From a virus, in the IMG/VR virus record IMGVR_UViG_3300020000_000060, positions 1 through 23,208 of that record: DNA of 23,208 bases; one strand, written 5' to 3'. The position numbers and the translations under genes are program-made. The notes beneath the pieces are model-generated. The model was not told where the DNA came from, did no database searches, and saw only the letters and a list, made by a program, of their open reading frames with translations. Below, one piece after another: positions 2,120 to 13,054 of the stretch. Each line of letters opens with the position of its first letter. The stretch's first letter is position 1.

Positions 2120-3475
2120 TTAGATGCTTACCAGATGTACATCGTGGTAGGAATTGCCAAAATAGGTCTTCATAGGAAACATACCGTTACAACTCATTAC
2201 TTGACGTATATGATTAAGAGTTTGTAACCCATCATTCTTATGAAAGTCATAAAGTGCCGCATCATACGTATAAAGCACCAACTTTGTCTTCTTATCTTTC
2301 AAATAATCCATTACAAATTGCAACTGAGGAATAGCAATCTCACCCTCTACGGCTTGAAGAATATAATTAAATACTTTACTGGGGTTTGGATCTTGAATAT
2401 GTTTGCTTGTAATTTTTCGTTTGAAAATAGGGGTTTCAACATATCCATTCTTCTGAAAAAACTCCCACTGTTCGTCTATGAAAATTTTGAGATTAGACAA
2501 ATACTTTATATGAGAATATTTATCTTCTACACCACCATAGAACTGTCTAAAAGTTAATTGTTTGGCATTTTTTATATCTGTTTCATCTACTTCTTTCTTT
2601 TGAAAATAAAGTTTGGCAAGATATTCGTAAATATCAGTTTCTATTGGAAGAGGATATTTGGTAAGGTTACAAATAATACGAGGATGAAAAGTAGAATAAT
2701 CAACAATAACCATTCTTCCATCTTTTCCATAACGAGAAACAAAACAAGATCTAGAACCATCTGTATGATTTAAAGCAGCATAATTTATCCCACCATACCT
2801 ATTGCTGGGTCGTCCAGTAGATGTATATACATTATATTGACTAAATACCAATCCTTTCTTATTAGGAGAAGACTTAAAATGTTTAGCAAAAAGAGAAGCA
2901 TCAACATATATTCCGCTTTTTTCAATTTTTCCAAGAGTCCTAATAATTGTGTCATTAAACCTCGTATATGGATCATCAATTGTAAATTTACTAATCATTT
3001 TTTCAATATTCACGCACATATCGTCAAATGCTTCTTTATGTTTTAATAAAGGTATTGATTTATTTATTTGTCCCATTCCGCTGGAATTTCTACGTACAAG
3101 ATTATGTGCTGAAGTTTCAAAATCTGAAAAATCTAAAATTTCATTATTTTCCAAAAACCCACAAAGATTAGCATCGTTTACATAAGGTAATTCTATCAAT
3201 TGATGAAATGCCTTTTTATCTAACACCCATATTCGATTCTTTGCCTTTAATAAGAATTCTTGAACAAACCACGCATCTGTCACCTTAGAAATAGAATCTG
3301 GATGATTAAAAGAATAATAGTAAGTCTTTCCAGTTAAAACATTTCGGATAAATAAAATACCGGGGGTATTATCGGCAGGATGAATTCCATCCTCAATTGG
3401 TACAACATGTACAATCCAATCTCCTTCAATATTTTCGGAATGGAAACGATTACAATCCTGAGTTGTCTCTATCAT
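2120..3475 (-). CDS. Divergent family-A DNA polymerase-like protein
   Basis: 451 residues from the ATG at 3475. A longer frame opens at 3628, but that part overlaps the hub gene and shows no polymerase similarity, so I chose the downstream ATG; no Shine-Dalgarno supports either. Family-A features in order: a thumb-like TLGKIEKSGIYVDASLF (180-196); TSTGRPSNRYGGINYAAL (218-235), matching the TGRLSS...LQNIP region; motif A VDYSTFHPRI (D259; the usual Glu of DYSxxELR is His); motif B IKNAKQLTFRQFYGG (K305, F309 and Y313 match Pol I K758, F762 and Y766; R754 is replaced by Ile); motif C LYTYDAALYDF (D405 kept; the flanking His and Glu are Tyr and Ala). The N-terminal ~150 residues occupy the place of the 3'-5' exonuclease domain but lack a recognisable DxE motif. 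Both metal-binding Asp are present, so polymerisation is plausible and proofreading doubtful. It sits between tail genes and the SSB gene. Confidence 0.75.
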   Translation of the reverse strand: MIETTQDCNRFHSENIEGDWIVHVVPIEDGIHPADNTPGILFIRNVLTGKTYYYSFNHPDSISKVTDAWFVQEFLLKAKNRIWVLDKKAFHQLIELPYVNDANLCGFLENNEILDFSDFETSAHNLVRRNSSGMGQINKSIPLLKHKEAFDDMCVNIEKMISKFTIDDPYTRFNDTIIRTLGKIEKSGIYVDASLFAKHFKSSPNKKGLVFSQYNVYTSTGRPSNRYGGINYAALNHTDGSRSCFVSRYGKDGRMVIVDYSTFHPRIICNLTKYPLPIETDIYEYLAKLYFQKKEVDETDIKNAKQLTFRQFYGGVEDKYSHIKYLSNLKIFIDEQWEFFQKNGYVETPIFKRKITSKHIQDPNPSKVFNYILQAVEGEIAIPQLQFVMDYLKDKKTKLVLYTYDAALYDFHKNDGLQTLNHIRQVMSCNGMFPMKTYFGNSYHDVHLVSI

Positions 3476-3509
3476 TAACCAGTAATGGTAGCAGATCTTA
3501 TATCGGAAG

Positions 3510-6500
3510 TCAATTTGTTTTAGAGGACACTGGAATATTGAGACGTACTTTGATGTGTTCTCTAAGAGGAATAATGCCTGCGGTAATGACTGTAGTCCAC
3601 TTGCCAGCTTCAATTGTTTCCTGTACATCTACAATTCGAAATACAATATTTTCATGAGAATATGGTTCGGGTAAATTGCGAACAAGAAACATCATAAAAG
3701 TTCTTAATCCCCCAATTCCTTGAATGGTAAAACTTGCTTGAATACCGGGCATTATACCAGTATATTTAGGATTAAGTTCTTCGTCTCCATCATCAAGTAG
3801 AAGTTTTAAAAGCTGACTTGAACTTGAATATGGAATTGCTAACCGACGAATAAGAGTCTGGCCACCTGCTCTTTTATTTGTCATTTGATAAGAACCAGGT
3901 GGCGGTGGTGTTATCTTTTGTAATGGATTCATAGCTGCCGCAAATTCTGTATCTATAGGTATATTTGCAGGAGTATCTTTCTTATTATCATCCATAATTA
4001 ATCGATCTTTAAATTTATAATCTAACAACTCATTATCACCATTAACTACCGTTACGTTTCTATCTGGTTGATTTGTCTGAGCATAAATTGTACGAATCGC
4101 CTGTGCATTACTAAGTGTTGGTTTAAAATTAAGTCCAAGCAATAAACTATCGGAATCAAAATAATCAAATGTATATGGAACTCCTGTGTTAGCCGTATTT
4201 ATAAATCGATCATCTATAATTTTCATAGTTGCTGGTCCAACTGTTTTTACAGCCGCCGAACCATCCTTTTTAAAACTTCCTCTTCCTGATCCCGAAACCA
4301 ACCTAAAATCCCAGAATCCTCCTGCCGCCTCACTTATACTTGACAGAAGTCTCTCAATAAAATTAACATATGTTTTTATACCAGTATCATTTACCAATTT
4401 TTTTAAAAGTTTAGTGTTGATGTAAATATCTTTTAGATATCCCGAATATTTAGCGGGATATAATTTGGAAGCCATTTCTGGATTTTTATCAGTAAAAAAT
4501 GGAAATGCATATGCATGATCTTCATTATTAGTTGTATTCTTATAACGTATATCATTAATTAGTTCATCTAAATTATCTCTATATGCTCCTCCACTTTGAC
4601 CACAAACCTTGAATAACCTATAATCAGCGAGAGATTTATTTTTTTTAGCAGTTTCATAATCTTTTATTTCAATCATTACGTCACAATTTTTCATTACTTC
4701 TAAATCTTTTTTTTGTAGTAATGCTTCAATACGAATCTTTTCTGCTGCTTCTCTTTTTTCTATAGCTTCTTTTGCAAAAGAATCTTTTATTTTTTGTCTT
4801 TCTTCTTGTGTCTTTGCTTTAGAAAGTAAATCCTGTTCCTTATTCCGTATCACTCCGGGAGAAGTATGCGTAATACTTTTTCCCGGTATAGAAGTACCAA
4901 ATAATTTTGAAAATGCATCCTCAATATCTACCGTAATTGGTCCTACATCTTCTAACGGACTTCCAAAAATACCTTGACTAATTAGCCTTCCTCCTGGAAA
5001 CGATAAATCTTTAGGATCAAGAGCATATTTCCCCTGAAAATATTTTGGTGCGCTGGCATTAGGAATTAATATTGAATATCCATCTCCGGAAATCAAATTG
5101 GGATGTGCCGAAATTACAACATCATCAATATCCACTCGAAAAATTTCATCTTGTTTAAATGATTTCATGGCTTGAACATGGTAATTAATAATTTCTATAA
5201 CTAATCCCATATTTAGCCATAGATCATCATGCACCGCTTGATAATCAAAATCATAAGTAGTATCGGCACCAACATTAATATTTGAAGTAATATTATCAGT
5301 TGTACTACTAGTGGTGGTAGTGGTGGGGGTGGCATTAGGAAAGCTTCCTTTCGACCCGTGGGACAAAGAATCTCTATCTATGTTAGGAAAGCTTCCTTTC
5401 GATCCGTGAGACAAAGAATCTCTATCTATGTTGGGAAAGCTTCCTTTTGATCCACGAGATAAAGAATTCTCATTTGAATTAGGAAAGCTTCCCTTTGATC
5501 CACGGGATAAAGAATTTTTGTTTGTACCAATGGATTTCTCATCCGATCTTCCAAAAAATACACCATAAATATATTTTCTCCATCGGTCTTTGTCTTCTTT
5601 GGGGCTATGATGATTATATACATAAGTTACAATATCTTTTAGTCCCGGAATTGACACTGGCGTTTGAGAAAAATTACGTACCTCTTTAAATGCCGATATA
5701 TTTTTGTTAATAAAATCTACTAAACTACCAAACGGTCTAATCTCATTTTCCGCTCCTTTTTTTACATTGGAATAAACAGAATTAGAATCTACGGCAAGTC
5801 CAGCATAAATACGATCCTGAGAAGTTATTTCGGTTTTACATTTAAATTTATTACCTTCAACCGACCATTCAAAATGTGTAATTCTTCCGAAAAGAACATC
5901 ATAATTTCCTTTGGAGCTTAAAATATGATCTGTGTATAGAGGATAGGGGTTATTATTAAACTCCTTCAGTGTCTTTTCATCTGTCAAATCAAGTAAGGAT
6001 TTAGGATCAAAATGATTCCATCCCCACTCAAGAATACAAGAAAGACCAGGAACCAAAAAATAAGGAGTCATGTATTCTAGTTGTGTCTTTGAAAAACAAA
6101 CCCACTCAACCGTGGCCCGACGATATAATTCTTTTTGAATAGTTATACTTATTCTTTCAATTTCGGGAGACGGAAAATGAATCGGATAATGACTAGTACG
6201 AAAATCATTCTCAATAGTATGAGTTTGAATACCATCTGGTAGATATCCGATTATACTTTCAGGAGTTCCATTAGTATTCTTAGCAAACCCATATCCATCA
6301 TAAAAATTTTTTCCACCAAAAAATACAAATCCAGGCTTAATTTTTTCAGACGGAAGAGGATTTCCCTTGAGATCTTTTTCTCTTCCATATCCGTTGGAAC
6401 AAAATCTTACCCACGGAGTCATTGGCCCACGATATTTTATCCAATCCCCGCTAGATCTTCCGGCTTCATCGGCTTTATCCCAGTCTCCTTTACTAGAATT

Positions 6501-6599
6501 GACGTACACAAAACTGCGATTAACCTTTCGACGGTTAAGTTCATCCTGGATCTCACTAGGAATATTTGATGGCTGCCACGGAATTATTGGGGCTGGCAT
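3510..6599 (-). CDS. Large baseplate/tail hub candidate with an internal repeat linker
   Basis: A 1029-residue protein with no signal peptide or membrane segment. The N-terminal ~340 residues are beta-rich (RATVEWVCFSKTQLEYMTPY; FLVPGLSCILEWGWNHFDPK; DVLFGRITHFEWSVEGNKFK), a look common in hub/gp44/gpD-type tail proteins. Residues ~357-420 are four 16-residue repeats (core SRGSKGSFPN), followed by a Thr/Ser run. A Lys/Glu-rich helical stretch (around AKTQEERQKIKDSFAKEAIE) lies near residues 590-640. The C-terminus (TIQGIGGLRTFMMFLVRNLP; VDVQETIEAGKWTTVITAGI) is beta-rich. It lies after the tape-measure, tube-end and LysM-like genes, where hubs sit in P2/Mu-type tails (T-U-X-D order) and where T4 gp27 would be expected functionally. 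The hub call rests on position and general fold look, so it is moderate. There is a gap of 17 bases from the preceding gene and 34 to the polymerase-like gene. Confidence 0.6.
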   Translation of the reverse strand: MPAPIIPWQPSNIPSEIQDELNRRKVNRSFVYVNSSKGDWDKADEAGRSSGDWIKYRGPMTPWVRFCSNGYGREKDLKGNPLPSEKIKPGFVFFGGKNFYDGYGFAKNTNGTPESIIGYLPDGIQTHTIENDFRTSHYPIHFPSPEIERISITIQKELYRRATVEWVCFSKTQLEYMTPYFLVPGLSCILEWGWNHFDPKSLLDLTDEKTLKEFNNNPYPLYTDHILSSKGNYDVLFGRITHFEWSVEGNKFKCKTEITSQDRIYAGLAVDSNSVYSNVKKGAENEIRPFGSLVDFINKNISAFKEVRNFSQTPVSIPGLKDIVTYVYNHHSPKEDKDRWRKYIYGVFFGRSDEKSIGTNKNSLSRGSKGSFPNSNENSLSRGSKGSFPNIDRDSLSHGSKGSFPNIDRDSLSHGSKGSFPNATPTTTTTSSTTDNITSNINVGADTTYDFDYQAVHDDLWLNMGLVIEIINYHVQAMKSFKQDEIFRVDIDDVVISAHPNLISGDGYSILIPNASAPKYFQGKYALDPKDLSFPGGRLISQGIFGSPLEDVGPITVDIEDAFSKLFGTSIPGKSITHTSPGVIRNKEQDLLSKAKTQEERQKIKDSFAKEAIEKREAAEKIRIEALLQKKDLEVMKNCDVMIEIKDYETAKKNKSLADYRLFKVCGQSGGAYRDNLDELINDIRYKNTTNNEDHAYAFPFFTDKNPEMASKLYPAKYSGYLKDIYINTKLLKKLVNDTGIKTYVNFIERLLSSISEAAGGFWDFRLVSGSGRGSFKKDGSAAVKTVGPATMKIIDDRFINTANTGVPYTFDYFDSDSLLLGLNFKPTLSNAQAIRTIYAQTNQPDRNVTVVNGDNELLDYKFKDRLIMDDNKKDTPANIPIDTEFAAAMNPLQKITPPPPGSYQMTNKRAGGQTLIRRLAIPYSSSSQLLKLLLDDGDEELNPKYTGIMPGIQASFTIQGIGGLRTFMMFLVRNLPEPYSHENIVFRIVDVQETIEAGKWTTVITAGIIPLREHIKVRLNIPVSSKTN
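5338..5529 (-). repeat. Four tandem 48-bp repeats encoding a 16-residue Ser/Gly/Lys linker
   Basis: GGAAAGCTTCC begins at 5338, 5386, 5434 and 5482 on the + strand, an exact 48-base spacing. The unit keeps the reading frame of the hub candidate and encodes GSKGSFPN plus a variable part (SNENSLSR, IDRDSLSH). Copies differ by a few silent or conservative changes. The block sits mid-protein and is followed by a Thr-rich run, so it is likely a flexible linker or an expandable surface segment. Confidence 0.9.
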
Positions 6600-9300: not shown

Positions 9301-11649
9301 TTATACTTTGTTTACTCCATATCCTCCATGAAAGTCTGTTTGTCTTGCTAATGTAGCACTTAATAATTGACCATCCATATTAATTCCTATTTTACCAGCA
9401 TTCAAATCTGCTCTCAATGCACAGATTTCACTTAATAATTTTAATCCAGTTTCGTTGGTCATAAGAATAGACTCGTCTTTTCCTACTTGAGCAGGTGTTT
9501 GTTTTTGATCAGTAGAGGCGCCAGCAATAGTGGTTCCATTAGGAGTAACCTGAACCGCAGGAATATATGCAGCCGAAGCTTTTACTTCTACTGGTTTATT
9601 CATTAACTCTCCCATGCCTCCACGAAGCTTTTCAGCTACTTTACCCATGCCTGGAATCCAATCTACTATCCATGCAAGTCCTCTACGGAATGGAGAGGTC
9701 AATGCATCAAACATCATTGTTCCAACTGATACAATACCTTCAAGAATTAATAGTCCAATTTTAGACGGCGATTTTCCTCCCCATAGTCCCATGATCCAAT
9801 TAAATGCGTCCACAAAGGGTTGAATTATTACATTGTACAATGCTCTAAATGGAATTGCAAATCCTTCATATATACGTTTTCCCCAAGACATATTTTCCCA
9901 GTTTTTAAAATACTCTGAAAATCCTTTCCATAACTCAATTGCAAGTTGAACTCCCATAATTATCCATCCAAGAATAGGAACCCACTTTCCAAAAAATCCA
10001 CCAATCCTAAGAGCCCATCCTCCTATTTTTGCAAGAGTTAGAATAAGTCTTTCCATCGGCGTTAAAATTTTTGTTCCAAATTCTGAAGCCAAAAAAAGTA
10101 CAGCAGAAAATTTTTCAGTTAATCCAACAAGATTAAACAGTTTAGTAGATATCCATACAAAAAGATTTCCCATGGCTACTAAAATCGGAAGAACTGGCAA
10201 TAATCCAACAACAAGTTCAAGAAACTTATCAACAATAAAAAGAATAGGCGGAGCTAATCTAGCTATAATCTGATTCCATTTTTGAGAAATTGCTGTTATT
10301 CTTTCTTGATTGGATCTTTGTTCAATCATGTATTTTAAATTCTCCGCACTGGATTTTGCTATAGACTCATTTGCTCGTCTAAGAGCCTCATATTTTTCAA
10401 CTTTTCCTGCCAATAATGGATCTCTTCTGGCCGCTTCCCATTGACGTTCAGCAACAACCATACGCAAAAGTTCATCTACACTCTTTCCAGTAGCCTTAGC
10501 AAAAGCTTCTTGCTGGAATACATCAAGATTCTCAAAACTAATAGATTTAGTTATACGTAAAATTTCTTTGGTAGATCCTTCCAAATCTCTTCTATATGCC
10601 AACTCACGGGCTTTTTGTAAATTGATAGCACGACCAAGTAATACTGAAGCTTCCATTTCGTCAGCAACATTAGTAGAAAATTGTAATATTTGATGACTAG
10701 AATTTGCTGCATCCTCAAGCGAACTTCCCATCTTTCTAAGTTCAATTGCTGATCTCATTACAATAGCCGGAATACGAGACATCATAGACAAAGTTGTCGC
10801 ACTTCTTGTTGCAACATCTTTCATTATCTGTGGGAATTTAGTTCCGGCTGCTTGTGACAAATCTGCGGTCATATATGCCATGTTTTCTTGAGATTCCATT
10901 GTACTCTTAGAAATCGCTGCCATGTTACGGAAAAATCCTGCACTATCTTCTTCAGCAACTCCAAGCTGAGATTGTAATATTGCCGTAGTTTTTACCAAAT
11001 CTCTAGTAATTATATGAATAGACCCCATTTGATCAGATAAAGCCATTGCCGATTTGAATACTCCTTCAAATGTGACTCCGACATGCATAAACTCAATCGC
11101 AATTTCTTGCGCCAACCTTTTTATGTCTTGAGAAACTAGTCTAGTCATTCCCATAGCTTTACGAAATTCCCATGCTGCTTTATCTATGTCTTTGAATAAA
11201 TGATATGCCTTAGAAATGACATATAGAATGGGCATCCATCCTCTCAATAAAATTTTGTTGAGGAAATCCAACTCAACTTCATAATCTTTTATTCTCTGTT
11301 GTATACCTTTAAGAATACTATCATATTCTTTTCTTTGAGTTTCATTCTGAGCCAATGATAATTTTTTAGCGGCTACTATTTCTGCTTCTTTATCTAATTT
11401 AAGAAGTTTATTTATTTCTCGCTTATCTTTCAAAGCTCTAAATAAATTAATATTAATACTTTTTGTAACATCAAACACTTGATGGAGATTATTAGCTTGA
11501 AGTTTAATAACCTCATTAATCTGTTTGGAAATGTCTAAAAACCCAAGTAAAGATCTTTCCTCATCTCGTGCTATTCTAGGATCCCCATATCGAGCCGCCG
11601 AGGGTGATATAGGTGGTGTATTTGGTGTATTATTTGGTGTATCGGCCAT
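9301..11649 (-). CDS. Tail tape-measure protein
   Basis: 782 residues, mostly alpha-helical. A Pro/Asn-rich start is followed by long charged helices (~40-135), a helical block (KAMGMTRLVSQDIKRLAQEI; DLSQAAGTKFPQIMKDVATR; SSLEDAANSSHQILQFS), and hydrophobic segments near residues 465-515 (PPILFIVDKFLELVVGLLPV) and 543-571 (WALRIGGFFGKWVPILGWII). The C-terminus is more polar and ends FHGGYGVNKV. This is the standard composition of tape-measure proteins, which fill the tube, set tail length and probably help DNA cross the inner membrane. At about 1.5 angstrom per residue the tail would be roughly 115-120 nm. It lies downstream of the gp26/51-like pair and upstream of tube-end genes. No Shine-Dalgarno precedes the ATG. 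The divergent + strand membrane-protein gene starts 81 bases away. Confidence 0.85.
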   Translation of the reverse strand: MADTPNNTPNTPPISPSAARYGDPRIARDEERSLLGFLDISKQINEVIKLQANNLHQVFDVTKSININLFRALKDKREINKLLKLDKEAEIVAAKKLSLAQNETQRKEYDSILKGIQQRIKDYEVELDFLNKILLRGWMPILYVISKAYHLFKDIDKAAWEFRKAMGMTRLVSQDIKRLAQEIAIEFMHVGVTFEGVFKSAMALSDQMGSIHIITRDLVKTTAILQSQLGVAEEDSAGFFRNMAAISKSTMESQENMAYMTADLSQAAGTKFPQIMKDVATRSATTLSMMSRIPAIVMRSAIELRKMGSSLEDAANSSHQILQFSTNVADEMEASVLLGRAINLQKARELAYRRDLEGSTKEILRITKSISFENLDVFQQEAFAKATGKSVDELLRMVVAERQWEAARRDPLLAGKVEKYEALRRANESIAKSSAENLKYMIEQRSNQERITAISQKWNQIIARLAPPILFIVDKFLELVVGLLPVLPILVAMGNLFVWISTKLFNLVGLTEKFSAVLFLASEFGTKILTPMERLILTLAKIGGWALRIGGFFGKWVPILGWIIMGVQLAIELWKGFSEYFKNWENMSWGKRIYEGFAIPFRALYNVIIQPFVDAFNWIMGLWGGKSPSKIGLLILEGIVSVGTMMFDALTSPFRRGLAWIVDWIPGMGKVAEKLRGGMGELMNKPVEVKASAAYIPAVQVTPNGTTIAGASTDQKQTPAQVGKDESILMTNETGLKLLSEICALRADLNAGKIGINMDGQLLSATLARQTDFHGGYGVNKV

Positions 11650-11665
11650 AATCTATGTTTATAAG

Positions 11666-11673
11666 TATAAATA
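11666..11673 (-). promoter_or_regulatory. Intergenic octamer TATTTATA (TATAAATA on +), copy 2
   Basis: It lies in the divergent gap, 16 bases upstream of the tape-measure ATG on the minus strand. It could also be read as a T4-type late promoter on the + strand, about 56 bases before the 97-residue membrane-protein gene. Confidence 0.35.
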
Positions 11674-11678
11674 TGACC

Positions 11679-11698
11679 TCAAGTAGATTTCTACTTGA
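11679..11698. promoter_or_regulatory. Perfect 20-bp palindrome overlapping the -35 box: candidate operator
   Basis: TCAAGTAGATTTCTACTTGA: arms of 9 bases around a TT centre. Its right end covers TTGA of the -35 hexamer TTGACA (11695-11700). No gene ends here on either strand, so it is unlikely to be a terminator. Occupancy by a dimeric repressor would block the promoter. The regulator is unknown. Confidence 0.5.
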
Positions 11699-11723
11699 CA
11701 GATTATAAAAAAGGTGGTATAGT
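11695..11723 (+). promoter_or_regulatory. Near-consensus sigma70 promoter for the rightward membrane-protein gene
   Basis: TTGACA (11695-11700), a 17-base spacer, and TATAGT (11718-11723): 11 of 12 consensus bases at ideal spacing. Six bases separate the -10 from the ATG at 11730, so the expected start is the A or a base next to it. The mRNA would be leaderless or nearly so. This is a host-type promoter inside a virion gene block that otherwise points left. Confidence 0.75.
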
Positions 11724-11729
11724 ATTAGC

Positions 11730-12023
11730 ATGAATGAAAAACCAGTGAAAATTGACCTGATTGGATCGGTTGAAGAGACCGTCGAAGAGGGAGTAGCCTT
11801 TATTGGATTTTCCCTTATTGTACTCTTGATAGTTGGATGCTTAATTGCTCCATGTTTCACAATGTTTTTTGAAAGTGGACTGGAGAAAAAATACGACTGT
11901 TCCAACCATCCAGAAAACTACCCAATAGTTCATAAAGAATTGTCTAAAATTCGATTTAATTTAACCATATTTGCTATTATCTCGTGGTTAATATTGGGGT
12001 ATATAACCATCAACTTCTGTTGA
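11730..12023 (+). CDS. Two-helix small membrane protein, moron-like, rightward
   Basis: 97 residues, and the only gene on the + strand that I accept here. There is a short acidic N-terminus (MNEKPVKIDLIGSVEETVEE), a first membrane segment at ~22-47 (FIGFSLIVLLIVGCLIAPCF), a ~30-residue polar loop (LEKKYDCSNHPENYPIVHKE) and a second membrane segment at ~77-95 (LTIFAIISWLILGYITINF). Topology cannot be settled from charge. It has its own promoter, a candidate operator and a terminator, and converges on the gp51-like gene with a 14-base tail overlap. Small two-helix phage proteins expressed early include superinfection-exclusion proteins such as T4 Imm, so an inner-membrane exclusion or host-modifying role is a reasonable guess, not a demonstrated one. 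I recognise no family. Because of the -10 position there is no room for a Shine-Dalgarno. Confidence 0.8.
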   Translation: MNEKPVKIDLIGSVEETVEEGVAFIGFSLIVLLIVGCLIAPCFTMFFESGLEKKYDCSNHPENYPIVHKELSKIRFNLTIFAIISWLILGYITINFC

Positions 12024-12273
12024 TTGCTGGACCTCTTGCAATCTTTTTTTGTGAAGTTGCCTCGTTCTTTCCAGAAGCAGCATCGTATTGTTGCTTCTCT
12101 TTTTCCTTAAGATTCATAAGCTTCTTTATATAGAAGCTTCTATATTGAACTGGCATTGAATATATTGCATCGTACTCGATTTTTCCAAAATGACAAAGTT
12201 CAAATATTAATTCGTGAAGTTGAATTTTGTAATTATCTGTTAGGCCAAAAAAAGGATATCCCCATCGGGACAT
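12010..12273 (-). CDS. 51: T4 gp51-like small tail/baseplate hub assembly protein
   Basis: 87 residues from the ATG at 12273, which has a good ribosome-binding site (GGAGAG eight bases upstream); the frame also extends to 12327, but without a start as good. The core MSRWGYPFFGLTDNYKIQLH, then ELIFELCHFG and MPVQYRSFYIKKLMNLKEKE, resembles the short protein that follows gp26 in T4-like phages and is often called gp51, a non-structural hub assembly catalyst. Its first 41 bases overlap the end of the gp26-like gene in another frame, including a run of seven U that could allow a frameshift fusion. The C-terminus is a Lys/Ala/Ser-rich tail; the last codons also encode the terminator of the opposing gene. 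The gp51 name is from recall of general pattern and gene order. Confidence 0.6.
   Translation of the reverse strand: MSRWGYPFFGLTDNYKIQLHELIFELCHFGKIEYDAIYSMPVQYRSFYIKKLMNLKEKEKQQYDAASGKNEATSQKKIARGPAINRS
12022..12050 (+). terminator. Rho-independent terminator of the rightward membrane-protein gene
   Basis: Stem GATTGC (12022-12027) with GCAATC (12038-12043), a 10-base loop, then seven T (12044-12050). It starts inside the TGA stop at 12021-12023 and lies within the coding 3' end of the opposing gp51-like gene. There is no T run on the other strand, so it should act only on rightward transcripts. Confidence 0.75.
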
Positions 12274-13054
12274 CTTCCTTTCTCTCCAAATTACAATTAG
12301 AACAATAGAAATCAAACGATGTATCAATATCAGGCATATTTTCTCTTATAAACTTACGGAAAGCAAGACTATCTTTGGAAATCAACTCTTCATTTACAAA
12401 CTTACGGATACGTACTCTTTCAGAAGATCCATCAATAGCGGTGATTATATGACTTAAACGAGTCGTAATTTCTTTAGTAAAATCTTTGGATATTTTTGCA
12501 AATCCAGTGAGTTCTTGTTCAATAGTATTTTCATCTTTCTTATTCAGAATTTTATATGTCAAAGTAATTCCAGAAAAGGGAAGTTTAAACGTGAAGGAAT
12601 TTTCTCCTTTAGGATAGTTTTCAAAATCAAATGGGCGATTATCCAGTTTTCCCAAATCAATCGTAATAGAACTTTCTTTATTACATCGTCCACATGATAA
12701 TGTAGCTTCGTATTGATCTCCATATGCCAATCTTCGAATAGCAAAAAATGCGGCGTTTCTGTCACAGATAAACATTTCATCAAGATTTATTGTTTTATTA
12801 ATAACTACCGATTCAAGCAATTTATCCAGAACTATATTCTTTTGAATGAGATTTCGTGAAGTAAGAATATCTTCTTCTTTAGCAGTCATCATCTTTAATT
12901 CAAGAGTCCCATTTGAAAGGGGATAATCCAGTGGATAAAACCAACCTTTTGATGGTAAATTGATAACCTCGGTGGGAAATTTAGTTTCTGTTCTTGGTGA
13001 AACAGGAGACGCAGCACTTGGACGTGTAATAGGAATAATCTGATCATCTGCCAT
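12233..13054 (-). CDS. 26: T4 gp26-family baseplate protein with two CxxC pairs
   Basis: 273 residues. A disordered N-terminus is followed by FPTEVINLPSKGWFYPLDYP (26-45), LSNGTLELKMMTAKEEDILT (46-65), then NLIQKNIVLDKLLESVV (68-84): the hallmark layout of the T4_baseplate (gp26) family. C121/C124 (LSCGRCNK) and C251/C254 (FYCSNCN) form a probable zinc-binding pair of knuckles. T4 gp26 is needed for central baseplate hub assembly. Upstream is a 69-base gap without the TATAAATA octamer (A/T-rich, no clear promoter) and no Shine-Dalgarno before the ATG (TTTTTTTAAAGTT). The 3' end overlaps the gp51-like gene. Placed between tube and tape-measure genes, it occupies the slot of tail assembly chaperones in many other phages. 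Confidence 0.75.
   Translation of the reverse strand: MADDQIIPITRPSAASPVSPRTETKFPTEVINLPSKGWFYPLDYPLSNGTLELKMMTAKEEDILTSRNLIQKNIVLDKLLESVVINKTINLDEMFICDRNAAFFAIRRLAYGDQYEATLSCGRCNKESSITIDLGKLDNRPFDFENYPKGENSFTFKLPFSGITLTYKILNKKDENTIEQELTGFAKISKDFTKEITTRLSHIITAIDGSSERVRIRKFVNEELISKDSLAFRKFIRENMPDIDTSFDFYCSNCNLERKEDVPMGISFFWPNR

Follow-up and report, generated by a model that had tools for sequence, protein, structure and literature searches.

In the temperate siphophage HK97, the superinfection exclusion protein gp15 is a 62-aa membrane protein that matches the YebO family and is encoded by a moron. Its gene fills the junction of the frameshifted tail assembly chaperone gene (G/GT type) with the tape measure gene, on the strand of the tail genes and with an annotated terminator. 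In the T4-type phages, Imm (PF14373, Imm_superinfect; 83 aa) is a small two-helix membrane protein with a short L-x7-W pattern in its second helix. Imm-like genes are also carried by the Guernseyvirinae (K1ind2 ORF20, Ent3 ORF24); in Escherichia phage K1ind2 (locus L192, 4025–5165), the Imm-like gene is antisense to the frameshifted chaperone/tape measure pair and immediately upstream of it, has a Shine-Dalgarno-like leader before its start, and groups with the Imm proteins. Known exclusion morons are often sporadic in occurrence. For lambda cI transcribed from PRM, and for other leaderless phage mRNAs, the −10 element is placed such that transcription starts at the AUG.

The window analyzed here, the whole of a 23-kb stretch (23,208 nt) from a viral metagenome record, covers a T4-like tail region in which all of the main genes face leftward. 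Within it, a gene for a 97-aa two-helix membrane protein (11730..12023, + strand; ATG start, TGA stop) is located, as is HK97 gp15, between a probably frameshifted tail assembly chaperone gene and the tape measure gene. Unlike gp15, the gene and its relatives encode proteins of 81–119 aa, run opposite to the tail genes, belong to a T4-like clade, and lack a conserved terminator. Both the two helices and the L-x7-W pattern are shared with T4 Imm, which occupies a different genome position. The K1ind2 gene is likewise a small antisense membrane gene adjoining a frameshifted chaperone/tape measure pair, but it is upstream of the chaperone gene and not between the two. Whereas lambda cI is the repressor gene of a temperate phage, the gene described here encodes a membrane protein of a T4-like clade.

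Results

Genomic context

The left flank of the membrane gene is the tape measure protein gene (9301..11649, − strand), assigned by tblastn to annotated tail tape measure proteins, and the right flank is a gene for a gp26-like tail assembly chaperone/T4_baseplate protein (PF12322, Pfam E 6e-13; PHROG 150; 12233..13054, − strand). A +1 frameshift site, TTTTTTTGG, was present in the chaperone gene at 82 of 82 loci, and the gp26-like gene ends in TTT TTT TGG CC(T) in nearly every locus, with the variants TTC TTT TGG and TTT CTT TGG found once each. In the window the slippery TTT TTT TGG is at 12247–12253 (− strand), at the end of the gp26-like gene. The +1 frame (12010..12253, − strand) continues as FFGLT..., and is conserved in the relatives as an extension of ~80 aa. 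It has no separate start codon in 58 of the 61 outgroup loci, nor in three loci that carry the membrane gene. The ‘gp51-like’ gene of the earlier note is thus better read as an extension of the gp26-like chaperone, probably made by programmed +1 frameshifting, and gp26 with this extension resembles the tail assembly chaperones of other long-tailed phages. This reading places the membrane gene between chaperone and tape measure. The extension and the membrane gene overlap tail-to-tail by 14 bp.

Two other genes in the window were recorded. A DNA polymerase family A-like gene of ~500 aa (2120–3628, − strand; Pfam E 3e-8, slightly below the curated cut-off) lies within the tail gene cluster, and a 1029-aa gene (3510–6599) contains tandem repeats with a ~17-aa unit (SLSRGSKGSFPN...; about 5430–5620, − strand).

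Membrane protein family

The gene, strand, and promoter described in the earlier note all proved real. The rightward orientation against leftward neighbors, as first noted, was borne out by the ORF map, and the 97-residue ORF with two hydrophobic helices was established as a gene by homology and dN/dS. A direct search of viral contigs with the window protein, a relative, or an alignment matched only the query itself. As searches with the membrane protein found nothing, relatives were fetched through the conserved neighbor gp26, which yielded 80 related loci. Homologues occupied the matching site and strand in all 20 related contigs holding the junction (gp26 identity, 66–76%; all carriers are metagenomic contigs), for a total of 17 distinct proteins including that of the window; these 17 sequences are related to one another and hence non-independent. 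Members of the family have two helices, mostly begin with MNE, close helix 1 with [LM]-x-[AC]-P-x-[FL], and have L-x(7)-W in helix 2. Leave-one-out HMMs recovered every member (E 8e-12 to 4e-33 with Z fixed at 1000; E 2e-17 for the window member), and a scan of all the collected DNA set the weakest member (2e-21) well apart from the match that followed it (0.013). No convincing second copy was found elsewhere in four large relatives (best E, 0.013). In the closest pairs with estimable dS, dN/dS was ~0.17–0.29, and every listed pair for which it could be estimated fell below 1. These ratios show purifying selection on the gene.

Profile searches of Pfam, PHROGs, and PDB with the membrane protein gave no meaningful match, so that the profile search proposed in the earlier note assigned the 97-residue protein to no known family, and structure searches with the predicted fold gave no match at E <0.001. 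PF14373 was not among the matches listed for the 17 members at E values up to 10 (25 of 34 families), nor was it found in a search of the window in which the controls were also empty. Homology to T4 Imm, which the short helix-2 pattern had suggested, was rejected on a profile score of 13.0, compared to shuffled-column controls with a mean of 11.9 and a maximum of 18.7 (hhalign), and comparison with HK97 gp15/YebO returned an hhalign probability of 0.2%. Matches of single members to holin families were at chance level.

The AlphaFold model is a helical hairpin (mean pLDDT, 78.6; pTM, 0.48). In 16 of 17 proteins the loop contains more Lys and Arg than both tails combined, and, because the loop is rich in these residues, the positive-inside rule predicts a cytoplasmic central loop with both ends outside. 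The mean distance among the membrane proteins was 1.92, compared to 1.08 for the tape measure and 0.34 for gp26. Once gp26 distance was removed, divergence of the membrane protein was not correlated with that of the tape measure (partial r = 0.09, p = 0.28), leaving a coevolutionary or cognate link between the two unsupported.

Distribution and origin

The carriers formed one clade (support, 100/99) in a 61-row gp26 tree, consistent with a single change. Between the stop codon of the chaperone gene and the ATG of the tape measure gene lay a median of ~40 bp in the 61 outgroup loci and a median of 350 bp in the carriers; the outgroup range was 24–61 bp apart from two loci, of which one (L046) has a tape measure frame that is broken in the contig. 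The other, L083 (Microcystis phage Mel-JY01), carries a same-strand gene at the junction (5039–5254) for a soluble, unrelated protein of 71 aa. The membrane gene is absent from the closest cultured relatives, Flavobacterium phage immuto and Mel-JY01, and no cultured relative above 42% gp26 identity was found. A gp26 search of genome contigs aimed at finding the host returned no relatives.

Since the tree requires a single change and the outgroup site is empty, the distribution is most simply explained by one gain in the clade ancestor, after which the gene would have been kept by every sampled member. The proposal of a gene inserted between otherwise adjacent genes holds accordingly, and the comparison of related genomes at the junction found it in 20 of 20 clade contigs and in none of the outgroups.

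Promoter and transcript start

A sigma-70-type promoter (11695..11723, + strand; TTGACA at 11695–11700, a 17-nt spacer, and TATAGT at 11718–11723) precedes the gene, as the earlier note had described. It has a TG-type extended −10 and is the best (11/12) of 16 promoter-like sites in 4 kb, where 16.1 are expected by chance. The arrangement is conserved by sequence: TTGAC[AT]-N16/17-TANNNT ending 6–7 nt before the ATG occurs in 17 of 17 distinct sequences (L014 fits if the ATG one codon upstream is taken), and the 16–17-nt spacer holds a conserved TATAAAAA-like core. The base at −1 to the ATG is C, the preferred −1 of sigma-70 starts, in 13 of 17 sequences. No Shine-Dalgarno sequence is conserved, with an SD-like tetramer in only four of 17, where it overlaps the promoter, while elsewhere these genomes use Shine-Dalgarno signals above chance. 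Because the −10 sits 6–7 nt from the ATG with C at −1, transcription is predicted to begin on or beside the first base of the start codon (11730, A), which would make the mRNA leaderless. A promoter of host sigma-70 type makes early expression of the gene probable; the timing given in the earlier note is retained at this strength, as a reading of promoter class.

Leaderless-type promoters (spacing, 6–7 nt) also precede the AAA-ATPase gene in three large relatives, and host-type promoters are found 6–9 nt before the ATG of AAA-ATPase or DNA polymerase A-like genes (G007:C1:70568, G010:C1:11307, and G001:C1:45131; also G007:C1:53160 and G010:C1:32786). These placements suggest that leaderless early genes may not be rare in the clade. 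A search of openly available papers turned up none that deals directly with leaderless early genes in T4-like phages.

Palindrome, hairpin, and late box

Overlapping the −35 is a 20-bp palindrome with 8-bp arms and a 4-bp loop (TCAAGTAG-ATTT-CTACTTGA; 11679..11698), and a terminator-like hairpin with a run of seven T was read from the sequence at the end of the gene (12022..12050, + strand; stem 12022–12027/12038–12043, T7 12044–12050). Both had been reported from the window, and both were graded confirmed but REINTERPRETED: they exist, and neither is conserved. Palindromes of this kind are common in the AT-rich window, which holds 12 of them, and the chance of one in an 80-bp intergenic stretch is ~3.5%. 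At the matching site an 8-bp-arm palindrome is missing from 15 of 16 relatives (L018 is the sole exception), so the proposed operator, and with it a ‘repressible’ gene, finds no backing in the clade; the palindrome is probably fortuitous or specific to this phage. The hairpin-T7 is almost wholly inside the opposite-strand coding sequence of the chaperone extension, with the T-run antisense to Lys codons. In a relaxed scan a terminator-like element occurred near the stop in four of 16 relatives; in most, the 110 nt around the membrane gene stop contain no terminator. An ‘own terminator’ was therefore dropped, as the element is formed by codons of the other strand and is not conserved.

Upstream of the promoter, a TATTTATA box, the inverse of the T4 late box, is present at 11666..11673 (− strand) and is likely the late promoter of the leftward tape measure gene. 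When the 70 nt preceding each of 309 distinct gene starts in the tail region were examined, TATTTATA occurred 125 times and TATAAATA nine times. The box reads as A or C followed by TATTTATA on the coding strand, and many copies are only 3–5 nt before the ATG. Inverted late boxes were seen in the window at 2086, 11666, 15007, 15013, 15610, 20186, 20813, and 20866, and in a relative (L082) at 1181, 3360, 3948, 4963, and 8016. In this lineage the inverted box may act as a reversed late promoter whose transcripts have very short leaders; a search of openly available papers turned up none that deals directly with a TATTTATA late promoter. The idea that TATAAATA at 11666–11673 drives late transcription of the membrane gene was rejected, because tail genes in general, the tape measure of outgroups without the membrane gene among them, are preceded by this same box facing the same way; it is the box of the tape measure read backwards.

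Discussion

Judged from sequence comparison, the gene belongs to a family of small two-helix membrane proteins that is conserved clade-wide in uncultured T4-like phages and placed antisense within the late tail genes. The term ‘moron’ applies in part. The gene is extra, lying between genes that are adjacent in relatives, and has a conserved promoter sequence of its own; the terminator and the sporadic presence are lacking, and at this scale a sporadic insert is contradicted by its presence in every clade contig that reaches the junction. As the palindrome is not conserved and the hairpin is made of the opposite gene's codons and mostly missing in relatives, the self-contained repressible cassette of the earlier note gives way to a gene that is resident in the clade and has its own promoter.

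Superinfection exclusion is our leading guess at function, based on size, membrane topology, expression class, and location, and we hold it tentatively, at slightly under an even chance. The earlier suggestion that the protein may exclude other phages is kept as the best guess by analogy to HK97 gp15 at the matching junction. Under this reading, host RNA polymerase would transcribe the gene soon after DNA entry, ahead of phage late transcription; the mRNA would start at its AUG and be translated leaderless; and the protein would form a hairpin across the inner membrane, its central loop facing the cytoplasm and its two ends the outside. From there it may block or alter genome entry by later-arriving, probably related phages, as do HK97 gp15 and T4 Imm. 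Exclusion-type genes may favor the chaperone/tape measure neighborhood. Against exclusion, profile comparison shows no homology to Imm or to HK97 gp15, and the gene is fixed in its clade where exclusion morons often come and go. The fuller proposal, a new and sequence-unrelated exclusion family in T4-like phages that sits reversed at the junction of HK97 gp15 and uses a leaderless early promoter to close the cell soon after DNA entry, is doubtful as a whole.

A gene that has an early-type promoter and is retained throughout the clade would also fit a routine function in infection, in which the protein acts early to inhibit or redirect a membrane enzyme, transporter, or membrane-bound defense of the host and does not act on other phages. 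Fast divergence would fit adaptation to differing hosts. Such a role in host takeover offers no homology or nameable host target and leaves the siting inside the tail operon unexplained, and we regard it as unlikely.

Holin-like size and the two-helix hairpin, along with the chance-level matches of single members to holin families, raise a role in lysis as a holin, an antiholin, or a regulator of lysis timing. Holins are normally late, yet the promoter here is host-type and the nearby late-type box faces the opposite way; the C-terminus lacks a charged tail, no endolysin was recognized alongside, and the predicted topology has both ends outside. A lysis protein is therefore improbable. A membrane factor for tail or baseplate assembly, sited beside its partners, would account for a gene that is fixed in the clade between the chaperone and tape measure genes; all outgroups have the equivalent tail genes without it and it lacks the late box of the tail genes in its own direction, which makes such a factor very improbable. 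An early antisense RNA that damps premature late expression of the chaperone genes, with the protein as a passenger, is the least credible reading and highly improbable: most relatives do lack a recognizable terminator between the membrane gene and the antisense chaperone genes, but the protein is under purifying selection and early sense transcription should be weak or absent anyway.

The analysis defines a family of small phage membrane proteins that spans a clade and for which promoter, start site, and topology are predicted. The predicted leaderless promoter would be an instance, in a T4-like phage, of early expression from an mRNA that opens with its AUG. If superinfection exclusion is the function, then unrelated exclusion genes would have settled beside the tape measure in siphophages and T4-like phages alike, which would bear on how the specificity of exclusion stays linked to the injection machinery.
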